64,000 nucleotides of DNA from the NCBI RefSeq assembly GCF_000152725.1, contig NZ_CH724131.1:3031236-3095235 (forward strand), given 5' to 3'. Position 1 is the first letter of the stretch. Every line of letters starts with the position of its first letter. A model generated the notes under the pieces. That model searched no databases, was not told the origin of the DNA, and saw nothing but the letters and a program-made list of their open reading frames with translations. Made by a program: the position numbers and the translations under genes. Positions 1-4,987 of the stretch are shown here, one piece after another. The stretch is from Pseudooceanicola batsensis HTCC2597 (GTDB taxonomy: Bacteria; Pseudomonadota; Alphaproteobacteria; Rhodobacterales; Rhodobacteraceae).

Positions 1-913
1 CGAGGCTTTGGATGAAAACCGTCTTTCCGACGCCTCCATCAGCGTAGAGAAATAAGGGTATACTGCTCGCTTCGATCTCGTCTTTGACAACGTGAAGGGC
101 AGAGCGCTCGACAACTTCACCAACATCAACGAAGCGGGTATCCGCAGGAAATAGCTGATCCTCGTCACACTCCAAGGCATCGAGGACATCTTCACGTGTG
201 ATCGAGTTGTTTCCCTGCCCTTCGATTTGGGCCTTCTCTCGCACAAGCTCAACCAGAGCGTACAACCTTTTTGCGGCCTGTCCGGTGGATCCGGCAGACC
301 AATCGCTAACCGTTCGTCGAAGGGATCGGTTCTGAGCAGGAAGATCACTTGTTGCAGCGCGAAACTCGATTAGCGGGAAGATTTCCCCTGCTTCGATCTT
401 CTCCTCCTTACACCATGCCTCGAGATATCTAAGTTGTGACTTACCGCTCTGGGTCTTCGCTACGCCACCTGACTTCAAACATTCGATAGCATCCCATAGG
501 TCGCTAGAGAATTTGGCATTTGTTACGAACCCGAATGATAGCTTGTTCGCGATGTCTGCGCTCGAAACACTTTTTCTGATCTCGCGAAGCGACGCAGAAA
601 ACTTCTTGATCGTCTTTTTTAGATAGGAAGAGGTGACCGGCTTTTCAGCCTCTTTGTATTTGAACTGCAAAATTTGCTGGGAGCTGCAGGTCTCAAAAGT
701 ATCGCCAGACCCATAGAAAAGAGTGAGATCGGCAATGTCCTCGGCCTCTTGCCCCCACTTCAGATTCTCATTTGGGGATAGGCCCTCAACAACGACTGCA
801 AAAAGATCATCTTTGGGGAAAACAAGTTGAAGCGCACGTCGTGCAGCCCACCTTTCGTGGAAGGTATGCCCAGCCCTTGAGACTCTGACTTTTTCGACTT
901 TTTTTCTTGTCAT
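1..913 (-). CDS. Nuclease-NTPase fusion, antiviral STAND (Avs)-like, cut by window edge
   Basis: The gene begins at ATG 913 and runs off the left edge; 304 residues are visible. Residues 1-120 look like a PD-(D/E)xK-type nuclease of the Cap4/DUF4297 or Mrr kind: a helix with HERWAARRAL, then acidic E43 and D59/D62 in DIADLTLFYG, then Q83-x-K85 in QILQFKYK. A helical linker follows, and a P-loop, ADGGVGKT, sits at residues 291-298. Nuclease followed by P-loop is the layout of Avs-type phage sensors and of other STAND-like defence ATPases; the sensor repeats expected at the C terminus are outside the window. It lies 141 bp downstream of a cassette on the same strand and may have its own promoter. 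Base composition is AT-rich like the rest of the island. Nuclease and NTPase are read from motifs; the defence role is inferred. Confidence 0.7.
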   Translation of the reverse strand, partial: MTRKKVEKVRVSRAGHTFHERWAARRALQLVFPKDDLFAVVVEGLSPNENLKWGQEAEDIADLTLFYGSGDTFETCSSQQILQFKYKEAEKPVTSSYLKKTIKKFSASLREIRKSVSSADIANKLSFGFVTNAKFSSDLWDAIECLKSGGVAKTQSGKSQLRYLEAWCKEEKIEAGEIFPLIEFRAATSDLPAQNRSLRRTVSDWSAGSTGQAAKRLYALVELVREKAQIEGQGNNSITREDVLDALECDEDQLFPADTRFVDVGEVVERSALHVVKDEIEASSIPLFLYADGGVGKTVFIQSL

Positions 914-1054: not shown

Positions 1055-1837
1055 TCAATGAATACAACCTAAATAGTTTTCTCCAAAACGGTCCATTGCT
1101 ACGCGCGCAACTCGCTCATTGACGCTCTCATCAATGAATAGGCCCCAAGGGTAAACGTCGACATTGGCGAGCTCGAAATCGTCTTTTGGGTTGGGCTTGT
1201 TTTGGCTGAGAAATGCGTAGCGGATCCCGGCCCACATCTCGAAGCCGAGCTCGACCTCGAGACCATCATATATGCTGTCGCCAGGGGCGTTAACGATCAC
1301 CTTTTTGGTAATGTCACCGAGTGCTTCCAACAGCATAATGCTGCACGTATGGGCCATAATGTCCGCAAGTTGGATACCCATGACCGCCTTGGAATCCTGT
1401 TCAAAGTGGAAGATGCAGCCTGCGAGCTCCGGATCGCCTGCAACTAAAGCCTCGGCCGCACTTTTGTGTTTGAAGAGGCCTTCATCAAAGAAGACCTCAT
1501 GCTGCCGCCCCTCGAGCAAGGGATGCTTCAGTGCGCTACGCAAAAGCGTCAACGAAGCTGGGCCTAATTTCCTAGTGTCTTCTGCGCTATCTACGACGCA
1601 TAGGGCCATTTTGCAGTTGCGTGCGATAAAGTGTTTCAAGCTATCACGCAGCGCTTGAAGATCATTGTCATCTTTCATGGTCGCTGAAGACTTGAACTCG
1701 AACGTGCCTGGATCGAAGCCATACTCGCGAAAGAGCGCGCCCATTTCTTCTGTGGGATCCACATCGCAAATGGCGAATGCGGCAAGTGAAAAGCCGGATC
1801 TATGGTGCTTGCTGTCGTCTAAAAATAGATAGGCCAT
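1055..1837 (-). CDS. DUF3800 domain protein
   Basis: 260 residues. The opening MAYLFLDDSK, then EFKSS, then FFDEG and IQLADIMAH are the spaced acidic blocks of DUF3800 proteins, which are thought to adopt an RNase H-like fold with acidic metal-binding residues. The biochemical activity of the family is not settled; members are common in mobile and defence islands. The start ATG overlaps the stop of the upstream HNH gene by one base (TAATG), so the two are almost certainly translated together. No signal peptide or membrane segment is seen, so a cytoplasmic location is expected. Function in this cassette is unknown; a nuclease or nucleic-acid-binding partner of the HNH protein is a reasonable inference. 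Confidence 0.75.
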   Translation of the reverse strand: MAYLFLDDSKHHRSGFSLAAFAICDVDPTEEMGALFREYGFDPGTFEFKSSATMKDDNDLQALRDSLKHFIARNCKMALCVVDSAEDTRKLGPASLTLLRSALKHPLLEGRQHEVFFDEGLFKHKSAAEALVAGDPELAGCIFHFEQDSKAVMGIQLADIMAHTCSIMLLEALGDITKKVIVNAPGDSIYDGLEVELGFEMWAGIRYAFLSQNKPNPKDDFELANVDVYPWGLFIDESVNERVARVAMDRFGENYLGCIH

Positions 1838-2736
1838 TACTGCTTAAAACAATTCTCTCTGTGCCAGGTTACAAACTCAGTCCTTGGCCGGTTGGCGAGG
1901 CGGTCCGGCACCAGGATCTTGCCGGACGAGTTAATCATCGACGTCACGGCTTCGATGTCGTTGCTCTGACGGGAAACCAGAATTGTCAGGTCGTCAGCCA
2001 ACCCAACGAGGCCGCGATCAAACATCCAATGCGCAGTTCCGGACAGGGCGAGCCCGTTGCTAACGATGTCGGGGCCGTCATGCTCTACCGGTCTGATATG
2101 AGCGGCTTCCACCTCAGCGCGACCACCACCATTGATCAGGCGCAAGCCAGTGATGGCGCAGCGTTCGCCGTAGGCGCGCAGGACATTCTTTCTGAAATTG
2201 CGGTCGCGAACCGCGCGATTGGTCAGTTGGTTGACGCGTTCTCGAGCGGGCATGTGTTGGAAAAGTGTTTGCGCGTCATGAAACCCTGGCATCTGCATCG
2301 TGTCGCCCACGCGAGGCAGGATGTCCTCATCTCGTCCAAGACCACGTTCAACTATTCGGGCGAAGTCTTCAGCTGAAAGGGTTCTTACCGCGGCTTGCGC
2401 GCGTCCGGATATCTTGCCTTGGTCGTTCAGCAATCCTCTTTCGATGATCGAATTCTCGTCCCGGAATGAAACAGGGTCGCCGAAATCAAGATACGTTCCG
2501 GGCTCTATGACCGCCAAGAACATGTCCTGCTTCCTAGGATCCGGAATGATCTCCTGGACCTTAGCGACTGCAAAGTACCCTTTGGTCTCTTTGACTTTGC
2601 TTGGCTCCAGGTAGACGATCCAATCCCCCTCGCACTGTTGGGCGCGTGAAAGGTATTGCTTGGGAAATTGATACCGCTCCGAGGGAATGTCGTCGTAGAT
2701 CGAGTCGCTGCGATGGATGAAGATACCGAAGGCCAT
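1837..2736 (-). CDS. HNH endonuclease with an EVE/PUA-like N-terminal domain
   Basis: 299 residues. The C-terminal half carries an HNH_2-type nuclease: FRKNVLRAYGERCAITGL, then AAHIRP with H213, NGLAL with N227 and HWMFDRG with H236. The first 100 residues (GDWIVYLEPSK, YFAVAKVQEIIPDP) resemble EVE/PUA-like small beta barrels, which in other proteins read modified bases. A reader plus an HNH nuclease is the layout of modification-dependent (type IV) restriction enzymes, but that specificity is inferred. The ATG lies 4 bp after the stop of the membrane-protein gene and the stop overlaps the DUF3800 start. There is no methyltransferase nearby, which fits a modification-dependent rather than a type II system. 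Confidence 0.8.
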   Translation of the reverse strand: MAFGIFIHRSDSIYDDIPSERYQFPKQYLSRAQQCEGDWIVYLEPSKVKETKGYFAVAKVQEIIPDPRKQDMFLAVIEPGTYLDFGDPVSFRDENSIIERGLLNDQGKISGRAQAAVRTLSAEDFARIVERGLGRDEDILPRVGDTMQMPGFHDAQTLFQHMPARERVNQLTNRAVRDRNFRKNVLRAYGERCAITGLRLINGGGRAEVEAAHIRPVEHDGPDIVSNGLALSGTAHWMFDRGLVGLADDLTILVSRQSNDIEAVTSMINSSGKILVPDRLANRPRTEFVTWHRENCFKQ

Positions 2737-2740
2737 CGGA

Positions 2741-3037
2741 TCACCCGCGTTGAAGGCGTTCCAGTTTTCGATCGGCTGCGCGAAGGGTCAATACCGCACC
2801 TGTCAAAAATGGAAGTGCGAAGCCAGCCGCAGCGATGGCAAAAATCATGGTGGCGGCCAAAACCGAGTATTCGGCGGTCTGTTGTGCCAATGATAGTCGC
2901 CCCAAGCCGATAAGGTAGAACACACTGGTTCCCAGGAGGATTGGGTAAAGCGGGTCAAGGGGTTCAATCACCTCACGACGGGTGCGTTCCAAGACTGAGT
3001 GTCTCAACATGTTCCAGCGTTTGCTTGCCTTGTTCAC
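2741..3037 (-). CDS. Small two-helix membrane protein
   Basis: 98 residues from a GTG start at 3037, chosen because GGAG lies 7 bases upstream, inside the end of the XRE gene. Two hydrophobic stretches are visible, about residues 31-51 (YPILLGTSVFYLIGLG) and 58-84 (YSVLAATMIFAIAAAGFAL). The N terminus is basic and the C terminus ends in a short charged helix. I do not recognise the family. It sits between the regulator and the HNH gene with 4-bp gaps on both sides, so it belongs to the same transcript. Small membrane proteins of this kind often act as effectors or anchors in defence cassettes, but nothing here proves it. A later ATG at 3010 is possible. Confidence 0.65.
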   Translation of the reverse strand: MNKASKRWNMLRHSVLERTRREVIEPLDPLYPILLGTSVFYLIGLGRLSLAQQTAEYSVLAATMIFAIAAAGFALPFLTGAVLTLRAADRKLERLQRG

Positions 3038-3041
3038 CAGA

Positions 3042-3464
3042 TTACTCCCTTACCAACTCGATCCATGTGTGCACGTCGTCATCAGTCACTTCACGGCCTT
3101 CGACATGCGATTGATACCAGCGCGCGACAATGGCCCCGCGCTTTTCGCTTTTGATTTTTATGCCCTCATCGGTGAGGTGCTTATCCAGCGAGCTTTCGAT
3201 GTGTTTGAGGGCATCGAAATCATGCCCCGCCCGAATGGATTTGGTGCCGAGTAACAGCCAGGGCACGTCCACCTCGAACCGTTCACCCATCGCGACCAAG
3301 GCTTCTACAGGCATTCCTCGCTCGCCCTTTTCGTAGCTGTGATACGCGCGCGGTGAGACACCGATAGCTTCGGCCATGGCCGCTTGTGAGAAGCCGATTT
3401 CATTGCGAGCAATGGTGAGACGAGCACCCATTGCAGCAAAAAGATCAGCAGGTTTCTGCGGCAT
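3042..3464 (-). CDS. XRE-family helix-turn-helix regulator
   Basis: 140 residues from ATG 3464 (MPQKPADLFAAMGARL); a longer frame upstream to 3578 is open but low in coding character and crosses the likely promoter. Residues 11-65 form a lambda-repressor-like HTH: LTIARNEIGFSQAAMAEAIG, SPRAYHSYEKGERGMP. The C-terminal part (about 70-140) is helical and charged and resembles repressors of mobile elements. It is the first gene of the minus-strand cassette and is divergent from the small DNA-binding protein and integrase, so it could repress both. An inverted repeat suitable as operator lies 22 bp upstream of its start. Confidence 0.85.
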   Translation of the reverse strand: MPQKPADLFAAMGARLTIARNEIGFSQAAMAEAIGVSPRAYHSYEKGERGMPVEALVAMGERFEVDVPWLLLGTKSIRAGHDFDALKHIESSLDKHLTDEGIKIKSEKRGAIVARWYQSHVEGREVTDDDVHTWIELVRE

Positions 3465-3485
3465 CTGAATTTTCCAATTGACTAC

Positions 3486-3503
3486 TTCGCCGAAATTAGC
3501 GAA
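3486..3503. promoter_or_regulatory. Candidate operator of the island regulator
   Basis: Inverted repeat TTCGC (3486-3490) and GCGAA (3499-3503) with an 8-base spacer, in the divergent region between the XRE gene and the small DNA-binding gene. Related CGAA blocks recur at 3491, 3501 and about 3520. Its placement suggests autoregulation and control of the integrase side; this is inferred. Confidence 0.35.
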
Positions 3504-3619
3504 CTTTGCAAAAAATGACGAACATTTACAGTTAATCACATCTGACCACGTCAGAAGGTGCAGAACAAGCGATTCCATGCGTGTCGCCGATTCAACTTAA
3601 GCGGACAAGGACGACTGAA

Positions 3620-3967
3620 ATGGCAGAGACCAACTATTCAGACAGCTGTCAGATCCTGGGGCTTGGGAAAACACCCGCGCAATGGGTCGAAGTCATGGCC
3701 GGTATGGGGATCGATATTTCGGAACGCACCTTGCGCGAACGCGCCAATGAGACGGGCGCATTCTATCGCCTTGGGCGGACCATGCTCATCACGCCCGCGC
3801 AGATTGATACGATTTTTGAAGGAGGCCAGTCATGCCGCTCCAAATTTACAAGAGGGGCCGTGTCTACTGGGCCAAGGGGTGGATTGAATACAACGGCAGG
3901 CCAATCGCCGGCCCATACCGGCGAAGCACTAAGGCATCTACAGAAGAGGGCGCACGGGACTGGATAA
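3620..3967 (+). CDS. Small DNA-binding protein, possible excisionase or HTH regulator
   Basis: 115 residues from ATG 3620 (MAETNYSDSCQILGLGKT), with AAGGA upstream. Residues 8-75 read as a small MerR/AlpA-like helix-turn-helix module: TPAQWVEVMAGMGIDISERTL, then LITPAQIDTIFE. Proteins like this are found just before integrases and act as directionality factors or regulators. The frame stays open for 136 bp into the integrase gene, so the last 45 residues (rich in G, T, R and H, with no recognisable domain) may be a low-value tail or a true overlap. The role is inferred from position and the HTH-like part. Confidence 0.6.
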   Translation: MAETNYSDSCQILGLGKTPAQWVEVMAGMGIDISERTLRERANETGAFYRLGRTMLITPAQIDTIFEGGQSCRSKFTRGAVSTGPRGGLNTTAGQSPAHTGEALRHLQKRAHGTG

Positions 3968-4926
3968 ACCATGAGACCGAGCGTCAGATCCGTCGCTATG
4001 TTGTGGGCGACGAACAGAGCAAAACGTTCTCCGATGCAATCATGCTCTACAACGCGTCCCCAAAAGCAGCTAAGCAGTTGATCCCGATTGTCGAAGCAAT
4101 CGGTGACCTATCGCTCGGCGCGATTTCTGGCGCGCTATTGAAAAGCCTTGGGCCGAAGCTGAAACCCAAAGCGTCGACCGATACCTGGTGGCGTGAAATC
4201 GTGACGCCCGCGAGTGCTGTGATTAACAACGCCCACGAGCTGGAAGGCACGCCGCTGATCCGTGTAAAACCCTACGACAAGTTTGAGCGGATCGCACAGG
4301 ACAAACGGCGCGGGAAGCTTAGCCGCGTCGAGCGCACGCCAGCTGACAAGGAATGGATCGAAGCCTTTTGCCGTGCTGCTGATCCGTACAACGCCGCGCT
4401 AGTCCGTTTCATGTTTGAGACGGCAGCACGGATTGATCAGGCTGTATCTTTGGAGCCTGATGACCTTCGACCGCACGAAAACAAAGTCCGCGTGAAAGCG
4501 CAGAAAGGACATCCAGAAAGTTGGATCACCGTTTCGCCGCAGATGATGGACGAGCTTCTCGCACTGCCAGCCAAACGGCCCAAAAACCGCAAGACTGGCA
4601 AGCTCATGAAGGCGCGCGTTTTCGGCTATGGCAGTTCCACCGGCTACAACACGCGCTGGAAGACAATCTGCAAGCGCGCGGGTATTCCGTACCTGTCAGC
4701 CCATCCAGCAGGACGGCACGGCTTCTTCACGGAGCTTGTTGTCCGTCAAGGCGTCGATCCGGTCACTGCAGCCAAGGCTGGCCGGTGGGCTGACCCCAAT
4801 TTGCCCATGCGCATCTATGCCCACGCAGAGACCGACGAGGCTGACATCCGAGCCCGTTTTCGTACAAACCATGTACAGGAAGACCCTGTACAAACACCCA
4901 ACAGCAAGAAATCACAAAAGGAATAG
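3832..4926 (+). CDS. Tyrosine recombinase (phage-type integrase)
   Basis: 364 residues. The start ATG 3832 has a strong GAAGGAGG 7 bases upstream. The C-terminal catalytic domain shows the tyrosine-recombinase pentad in order: Arg in FETAARIDQAVSL, Lys in VRVKAQKGH, H-x-x-x-R in SAHPAGRHGF, the Trp/His position in KAGRWADP, and the nucleophile Tyr in MRIYAHAETDE. The N-terminal 100 residues are the arm-binding and core-binding parts. The gene ends 16 bases before a tRNA 3' fragment, the usual arrangement for an enzyme that inserts its element into a tRNA gene. It should cut at the attachment site described at 4943-4987. It looks intact. Confidence 0.95.
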   Translation: MPLQIYKRGRVYWAKGWIEYNGRPIAGPYRRSTKASTEEGARDWINHETERQIRRYVVGDEQSKTFSDAIMLYNASPKAAKQLIPIVEAIGDLSLGAISGALLKSLGPKLKPKASTDTWWREIVTPASAVINNAHELEGTPLIRVKPYDKFERIAQDKRRGKLSRVERTPADKEWIEAFCRAADPYNAALVRFMFETAARIDQAVSLEPDDLRPHENKVRVKAQKGHPESWITVSPQMMDELLALPAKRPKNRKTGKLMKARVFGYGSSTGYNTRWKTICKRAGIPYLSAHPAGRHGFFTELVVRQGVDPVTAAKAGRWADPNLPMRIYAHAETDEADIRARFRTNHVQEDPVQTPNSKKSQKE

Positions 4927-4942
4927 CGCTATGAACGCATCC

Positions 4943-4987
4943 CTCCTAAGGGGCAGGTTGCAGGTTCGAATCCTGCCGGGGTCACCA
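4943..4987 (+). other. tRNA-Arg(CCU) 3' fragment, right attachment site of the island
   Basis: The fragment reads as the anticodon loop CTCCTAA, a 3' anticodon strand, a variable loop, a complete T arm (stem GCAGG 4960-4964 with CCTGC 4972-4976, loop TTCGAAT), the acceptor 3' strand CGGGGTC, discriminator A and encoded CCA (4985-4987). The matching 5' half, expected to begin GACCCCG, is absent upstream, so this is the duplicated end left by integration and not a working tRNA. Its orientation implies that the intact tRNA-Arg(CCU) lies at the far left end of the island. The crossover limits cannot be set without that copy. Confidence 0.8.

Follow-up and report, generated by a model that had tools for sequence, protein, structure and literature searches.

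The window analysed here, a 64,000-nucleotide stretch of the genome (G000:C2:3031236-3095235), begins at its left edge with a minus-strand open frame (positions 2-913) that has an ATG at 913, encodes 304 residues and runs off the edge. An in-frame TTG lies upstream at 919 and, because a GGAG precedes both codons, at a distance of 5 bases from the TTG and 11 from the ATG, either may be the start. In an overlapping extract of the same genome, L002 (C2:3016236-3036235; window position equals L002 position minus 15000, with 5000 compared bases identical), the frame continues leftward from L002 15919 down to 10217 (C2:3026452) and reaches 1900 residues; the cut therefore belongs to the window edge only. 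Features of this avs3-like gene and its surroundings are collected in Table 1. Directly upstream of the gene lies the DUF3800 protein gene, followed by that of an HNH protein. In the HNH protein, residues 128-298 show similarity to a model of a phosphorothioate-DNA restriction enzyme (112 bits, cut-off 180), and no family match was obtained for the first ~127 residues.

Table 1 Features of the avs3-like locus (window positions unless marked L002)
Feature	Position	Strand	Basis
tRNA-Arg(CCT)	L002 4968-5044, left of window		element's insertion site
C-terminal piece of avs3-like gene	L002 8231-8966, outside window		
IS within avs3-like gene	L002 8967-10219, outside window		
5' part of avs3-like gene: Cap4-like nuclease domain and P-loop	2..919	-	ATG 913 or TTG 919
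DUF3800 protein	1055-1837	-	
HNH protein	1837-2736	-	HNH_2 36.9 bits
Tyrosine-type integrase of mobile element	3832..4926	+	Pfam Phage_integrase 40 bits, cut-off 27.1
Right end of element	4941..4987	+	47-bp copy (98%) of tRNA-Arg(CCT) 3' end

The gene is split after residue 1900 by a 1253-bp element, at the first bases of which the large open frame stops. This element carries TGACCTGCCCCC inverted at both ends, is flanked by CAGG on either side and encodes a 359-residue transposase ORF; it is called IS3-like because this ORF clusters by blast with an annotated "IS3 family transposase", and we take the 4-base duplication to be typical of IS3. Beyond the element, an ORF (P0004) matches Avs3a 1884-2064 with its residues 41-223. 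When both pieces are placed on the relative P0009, the large ORF matches residues 8-1911 and P0004 residues 1911-2154, and the last ~240 residues of the avs3-like protein thus lie beyond the element. Two relatives read through the break site in one frame (G349, 2154 residues, 75% identity; G207, 2172 residues, 72% identity). The genome contains four copies of the element without a single difference across the 1253 bases, and a fifth that is 82% identical; the insertion is probably recent and, given the four identical copies, may have happened too lately for decay to be visible.

The initial annotation had proposed that the frame fuses a PD-(D/E)xK-like nuclease (D62, Q83-x-K85) to a STAND-type P-loop (residues 291-298) on the N-terminal plan of Avs proteins, a proposal that the alignments and models bear out. 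Counted from the ATG at 913, all of these motifs are present, the P-loop reading ADGGVGKT, and D62, Q83, K85, G293, G294, G296, K297 and T298 are invariant in 21 of 21 aligned sequences (the window and 20 relatives), which makes them more than chance resemblances. With numbering from the TTG, the P-loop K299 and a DAxD motif (D396/D399) are invariant in six sequences, and we read the latter as the Walker B motif. The 1900-residue protein scores above the Pfam cut-offs for NACHT (31.2 bits, cut-off 26.7) and NPHP3_N (29 bits, cut-off 24.8), and below that for Cap4_nuclease (14.5 versus 26.2 bits). A structural model of the window's 304 residues built with 20 relatives (low mean pLDDT of 61, better at ~70-190) found SeAvs3 of Salmonella enterica (PDB 8dgc) as its best Foldseek match (E 1.7e-16), followed by Cap4 (6wan, E 1.1e-5), Hachiman and LmuA. 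VIA-align superposed it on 8dgc with Z 16.1 (245 residues, rmsd 6.6) and on Cap4 with Z 10.5, so that the N-terminal part does match a nuclease fold, while the Avs4 structure 8dgf matched weakly (Foldseek E 0.21, Z 4.6). The likeness to Cap4, and likewise to LmuA, HerA-associated DUF4297 and Hachiman, consists of a shared fold and is limited to the nuclease domain.

The leftward extension settled what the window had left open, namely the subtype and the sensor domain. PADLOC returned Avs3a as the sole match of the 1900-residue ORF (522 bits, E 8e-157), with no match to Avs1, Avs2 or Avs4 at E up to 1, and a PDB sequence search (E up to 10) returned only SeAvs3 8dgc, in stretches 11-980 and 1153-1894, leaving residues 981-1152 outside both. 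The C-terminal part was modelled on an intact relative (L037, about branch residues 955-2154; mean pLDDT 77), which is predicted to form a helical solenoid that gives way to a beta-rich part at about model residue 985. This model matched 8dgc in Foldseek (E 1.7e-24) and in VIA-align (Z 21.5 over 1002 residues, rmsd 8.0; next row Z 10.8), with model residues up to 1191 aligning to 8dgc residue 2082. The earlier suggestion of a new type, which had been tied to an absence of the usual C-terminal repeats, was accordingly dropped, since the solenoid matches that of SeAvs3 in sequence and fold. Judged by sequence and predicted structure, the subtype is Avs3-like: the protein has the same domain order as SeAvs3 (Avs3a of PADLOC and NCBIfam), and the likeness extends over nearly the whole length, including the nuclease and solenoid folds. 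In terms of a broad definition of Avs3, an N-terminal Cap4-like PD-(D/E)xK nuclease with D..QxK (motifs and folds), a STAND/NACHT ATPase (NACHT above cut-off) and an Avs3-type C-terminal solenoid (1153-1894 of the protein itself by sequence, L037 by fold) were all found, but the gene in this copy is broken. Under the narrower NCBIfam definition of AVAST type 3, the protein reaches 600 bits against the Avs3a equivalog cut-off of 2800; its two nearest intact relatives (655 and 679 bits) also fall below this cut-off, as does even the orthodox relative P0011 (2297 bits). Its identity to three orthodox relatives in alignment is ~20-22%. A phage origin was considered and rejected: 50,697 phage records searched at E up to 1e-10 gave no match, and 34 stretches of viral contigs matching two peptide patterns included no relative of the avs3-like protein.

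The same NCBIfam definition places Avs3b beside Avs3a, and no Avs3b was detected beside the gene. Among nine genomes searched for Avs3b, five gave a match; no match exceeded the cut-off, and two were weak (E 8.6e-11 and 3.9e-10). No Avs3b was found anywhere in G000, G349, G207 or G235. A local Avs3b profile (three rounds) run on the loci matched 13 of them (L024-L028, L094-L100, L102). The branch and its sisters, represented by 46 loci (L002, L022, L023, L030-L072; L023 and L038 are one contig), gave no match; some of these loci are short-flanked. The downstream flanks of 20 intact genes measure 0.6 to 10 kb. L101 and L103-L107 (L103 and L107 look like one record) also gave no match. Wherever both comparisons were made, the score of each of the 13 Avs3b loci was higher with the orthodox P0011 than with P0009, and since L103 and L106 join that side (by a slightly higher score with P0011) yet lack Avs3b, the partner is present in 13 of the 15 loci nearer orthodox Avs3a. 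The genes at L103/L107 and L106 are intact, encode Avs3-like proteins of ~2095 residues and are weakly nearer orthodox Avs3a. In a midpoint-rooted FastTree of 39 proteins, 26 without Avs3b separated from 12 with Avs3b plus L103, a root split with ambiguous support once the tree is re-rooted (1.0 and 0.53 on its two sides); support is 1.0 for a group of 24 and 0.98 for the close branch of 23. The branch thus appears to act without Avs3b, which sets it apart within a well-studied family of phage sensors. Our literature search, with poor coverage of subscription papers, retrieved no paper naming "Avs3b" and, with Avs3, Avs4 and AVAST added as terms, no title on such a branch.

The island suspected from the window alone has now been delimited: tRNA-Arg(CCT) and the 47-bp repeat of its 3' end bound 14.94 kb holding the avs3-like gene, which is cargo of an integrative mobilizable element in this tRNA gene. 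The element encodes a MobA/VirD2-like relaxase (23.2 bits, cut-off 24.6). At L025 in genome G259, the same tRNA-Arg(CCT) precedes a backbone that shares 90.8% identity over 3111 bp, after which come an orthodox Avs3a (2297 bits) and Avs3b (196.8 bits), in contrast to the lone form on the element studied here. The stretch concerned is L025 7007-17541; across the 20 kb of L025 the repeat turned up solely as its tRNA copy, and no right end of the related element was seen. Related elements carrying either form offer a natural comparison for asking what Avs3b does. Relatives of the relaxase, at 46-59% identity, occur in 6 of 39 other related genomes (L109-L114).

A scan of genome contigs, which recovers members carrying one of two short peptide patterns, located 38 loci of the branch in Rhodobacteraceae, in other Alpha-, Beta- and Gammaproteobacteria, and in Desulfuromusa and Desulfosediminicola. 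The G349 protein shares 74-76% identity with the copies in Desulfuromusa, Ewingella, Citrobacter and Pseudohongiella, which indicates that the gene has moved widely. Near-full-length branch members were found in 3 of 17 plasmid records. Matches occur in 9 of the 394 genomes of the family sample: three carry the close branch (the present genome, G349 and G207), five carry other full-length Avs3 relatives, and G235 has a frame of 558 residues near the start of a contig. Class-wide, the Avs3a model matched 4 of 385 genomes at E up to 1e-30, the present one included.

Breakage of the gene recurs within the close branch. When the close branch was sorted by hand into 41 genomes, the gene was intact in 22, interrupted by IS in 4, affected by stops or frameshifts in 8, truncated within a contig in 2 and at a contig end in 5, the last of which were dropped to leave 36 for comparison. 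The four IS-broken cases are the present copy, two from Rhizobium leguminosarum plasmids (L030 with two transposase genes inside, L031 with one) and one from Nitrobacter vulgaris (L063/L055, two contigs broken at residue 678 with IS-like ends, presumably IS5-like), and the latter three appear to be interrupted at other positions than the present copy. Broken genes numbered 14 of 36 in the close branch versus 1 of 13 at loci with Avs3b (L095, a frameshift; Fisher p 0.043). For IS alone the counts were 4 of 36 versus 0 of 13 (p 0.56), beside which plasmid records gave 2 of 3 for the branch versus 0 of 14 for the remaining records (p 0.022); of these 14, two are without annotation (L033 with one open frame, L095 with two adjacent frames), H33 is counted without its sequence, and a single plasmid may underlie two R. 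opacus PD630 records. A truncated P. turbinis plasmid copy (L104) and two intact Avs3b-less Tistrella-type loci stand outside these counts. We treat the frequent breakage of the close branch as a lead only; draft genomes contain sequencing errors, the sample is small, and the tests were picked once the data had been seen.

By analogy, an intact relative probably works like Avs3, which binds its target through the solenoid and forms an oligomer. The whole protein would use its solenoid to bind a conserved phage protein, most likely the large subunit of the terminase, and would assemble through its ATPase, after which the nuclease would cut DNA and kill the infected cell. The title of 8dgc describes Avs3 bound to the phage PhiV-1 terminase. 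According to one report (PMC12931631), the nucleases of Avs1-4 cleave both phage and host DNA once large terminase, portal or Ksap1 is recognised, and the triggers of Avs proteins differ (terminase, portal, Ksap1, JADA). The present copy itself probably no longer works, as judged from its sequence: the break falls near model residue 957 of L037 (by arithmetic from the alignment), which would leave the solenoid in place and remove the beta-rich part that is present in 20 of 20 intact relatives aligned. The initial reading of a candidate antiviral STAND protein therefore stands as to the kind of protein, which is Avs3-like, and fails as to this copy, which is probably no working sensor because the IS cuts off its last ~240 residues. 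What lies in the window is best explained, with a probability of about 0.8 that takes in the inferred mechanism and the dead copy, as the 5' part of an avs3-like gene carried as cargo in tRNA-Arg(CCT) and split by an IS3-like element. It is a known kind of defence protein from a branch without detected Avs3b, broken by an IS; the message of the window copy itself is modest, a familiar kind of defence gene that is probably dead.

Other explanations were weighed against this one. That the trigger of the branch is the portal or some further phage protein, and not the large terminase, seems rather unlikely: the L037 solenoid is only ~16% identical to that of SeAvs3 over the aligned structure, residues 981-1152 belong to no matched stretch and the triggers of known Avs proteins vary (PMC12931631), but the nearest solved relative, 8dgc, is terminase-bound. 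It is improbable that the 1900-residue protein still works, the IS having taken a dispensable C-terminal part and supplied a stop codon; its first 1900 codons are open with all motifs intact and the solenoid proper precedes the break, yet the lost part is retained by every intact relative aligned and belongs to the region matched in SeAvs3 (to 8dgc residue 2082), and an insertion as young as the identical IS copies suggest may predate visible decay. Very improbable is a larger system in which the sensor is one gene beside those lying upstream for DUF3800, HNH, membrane and XRE proteins. These share a strand and a tight order (window 1055-3578), but 135 bases separate DUF3800 from the TTG, and a search at E up to 1e-5 among the ORFs of the 50 other loci, some of them short-flanked, gave no homologue of either DUF3800 or HNH. 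A companion gene was considered as well and rejected: six flanking-ORF clusters are common to at least three loci, at varying distances from the gene, and on visual inspection they resemble transposases, ABC transporters, recombinases and other genes of mobile elements.

Beyond the preferred reading of a split avs3-like cargo gene, the branch might constitute a second kind of Avs3, independent of Avs3b through a self-restrained nuclease or a different phage trigger, swapped with Avs3a plus Avs3b on the same element, and costly, perhaps by reacting to a gene transfer agent terminase, so that the lone form is unusually often inactivated by IS or mutations; we regard this conjecture as quite unlikely. 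A literature search found no paper combining "gene transfer agent", "terminase" and "Avs". GTA_TIM matches occur in 5 of 5 genomes searched. G207 has six such matches (loci L086, L091-L093) versus one each in the other four genomes; its assembly, of 330 contigs and 83% complete, may be mixed. In the present genome, the sole Terminase_6N match lies ~11 kb from the GTA_TIM match.
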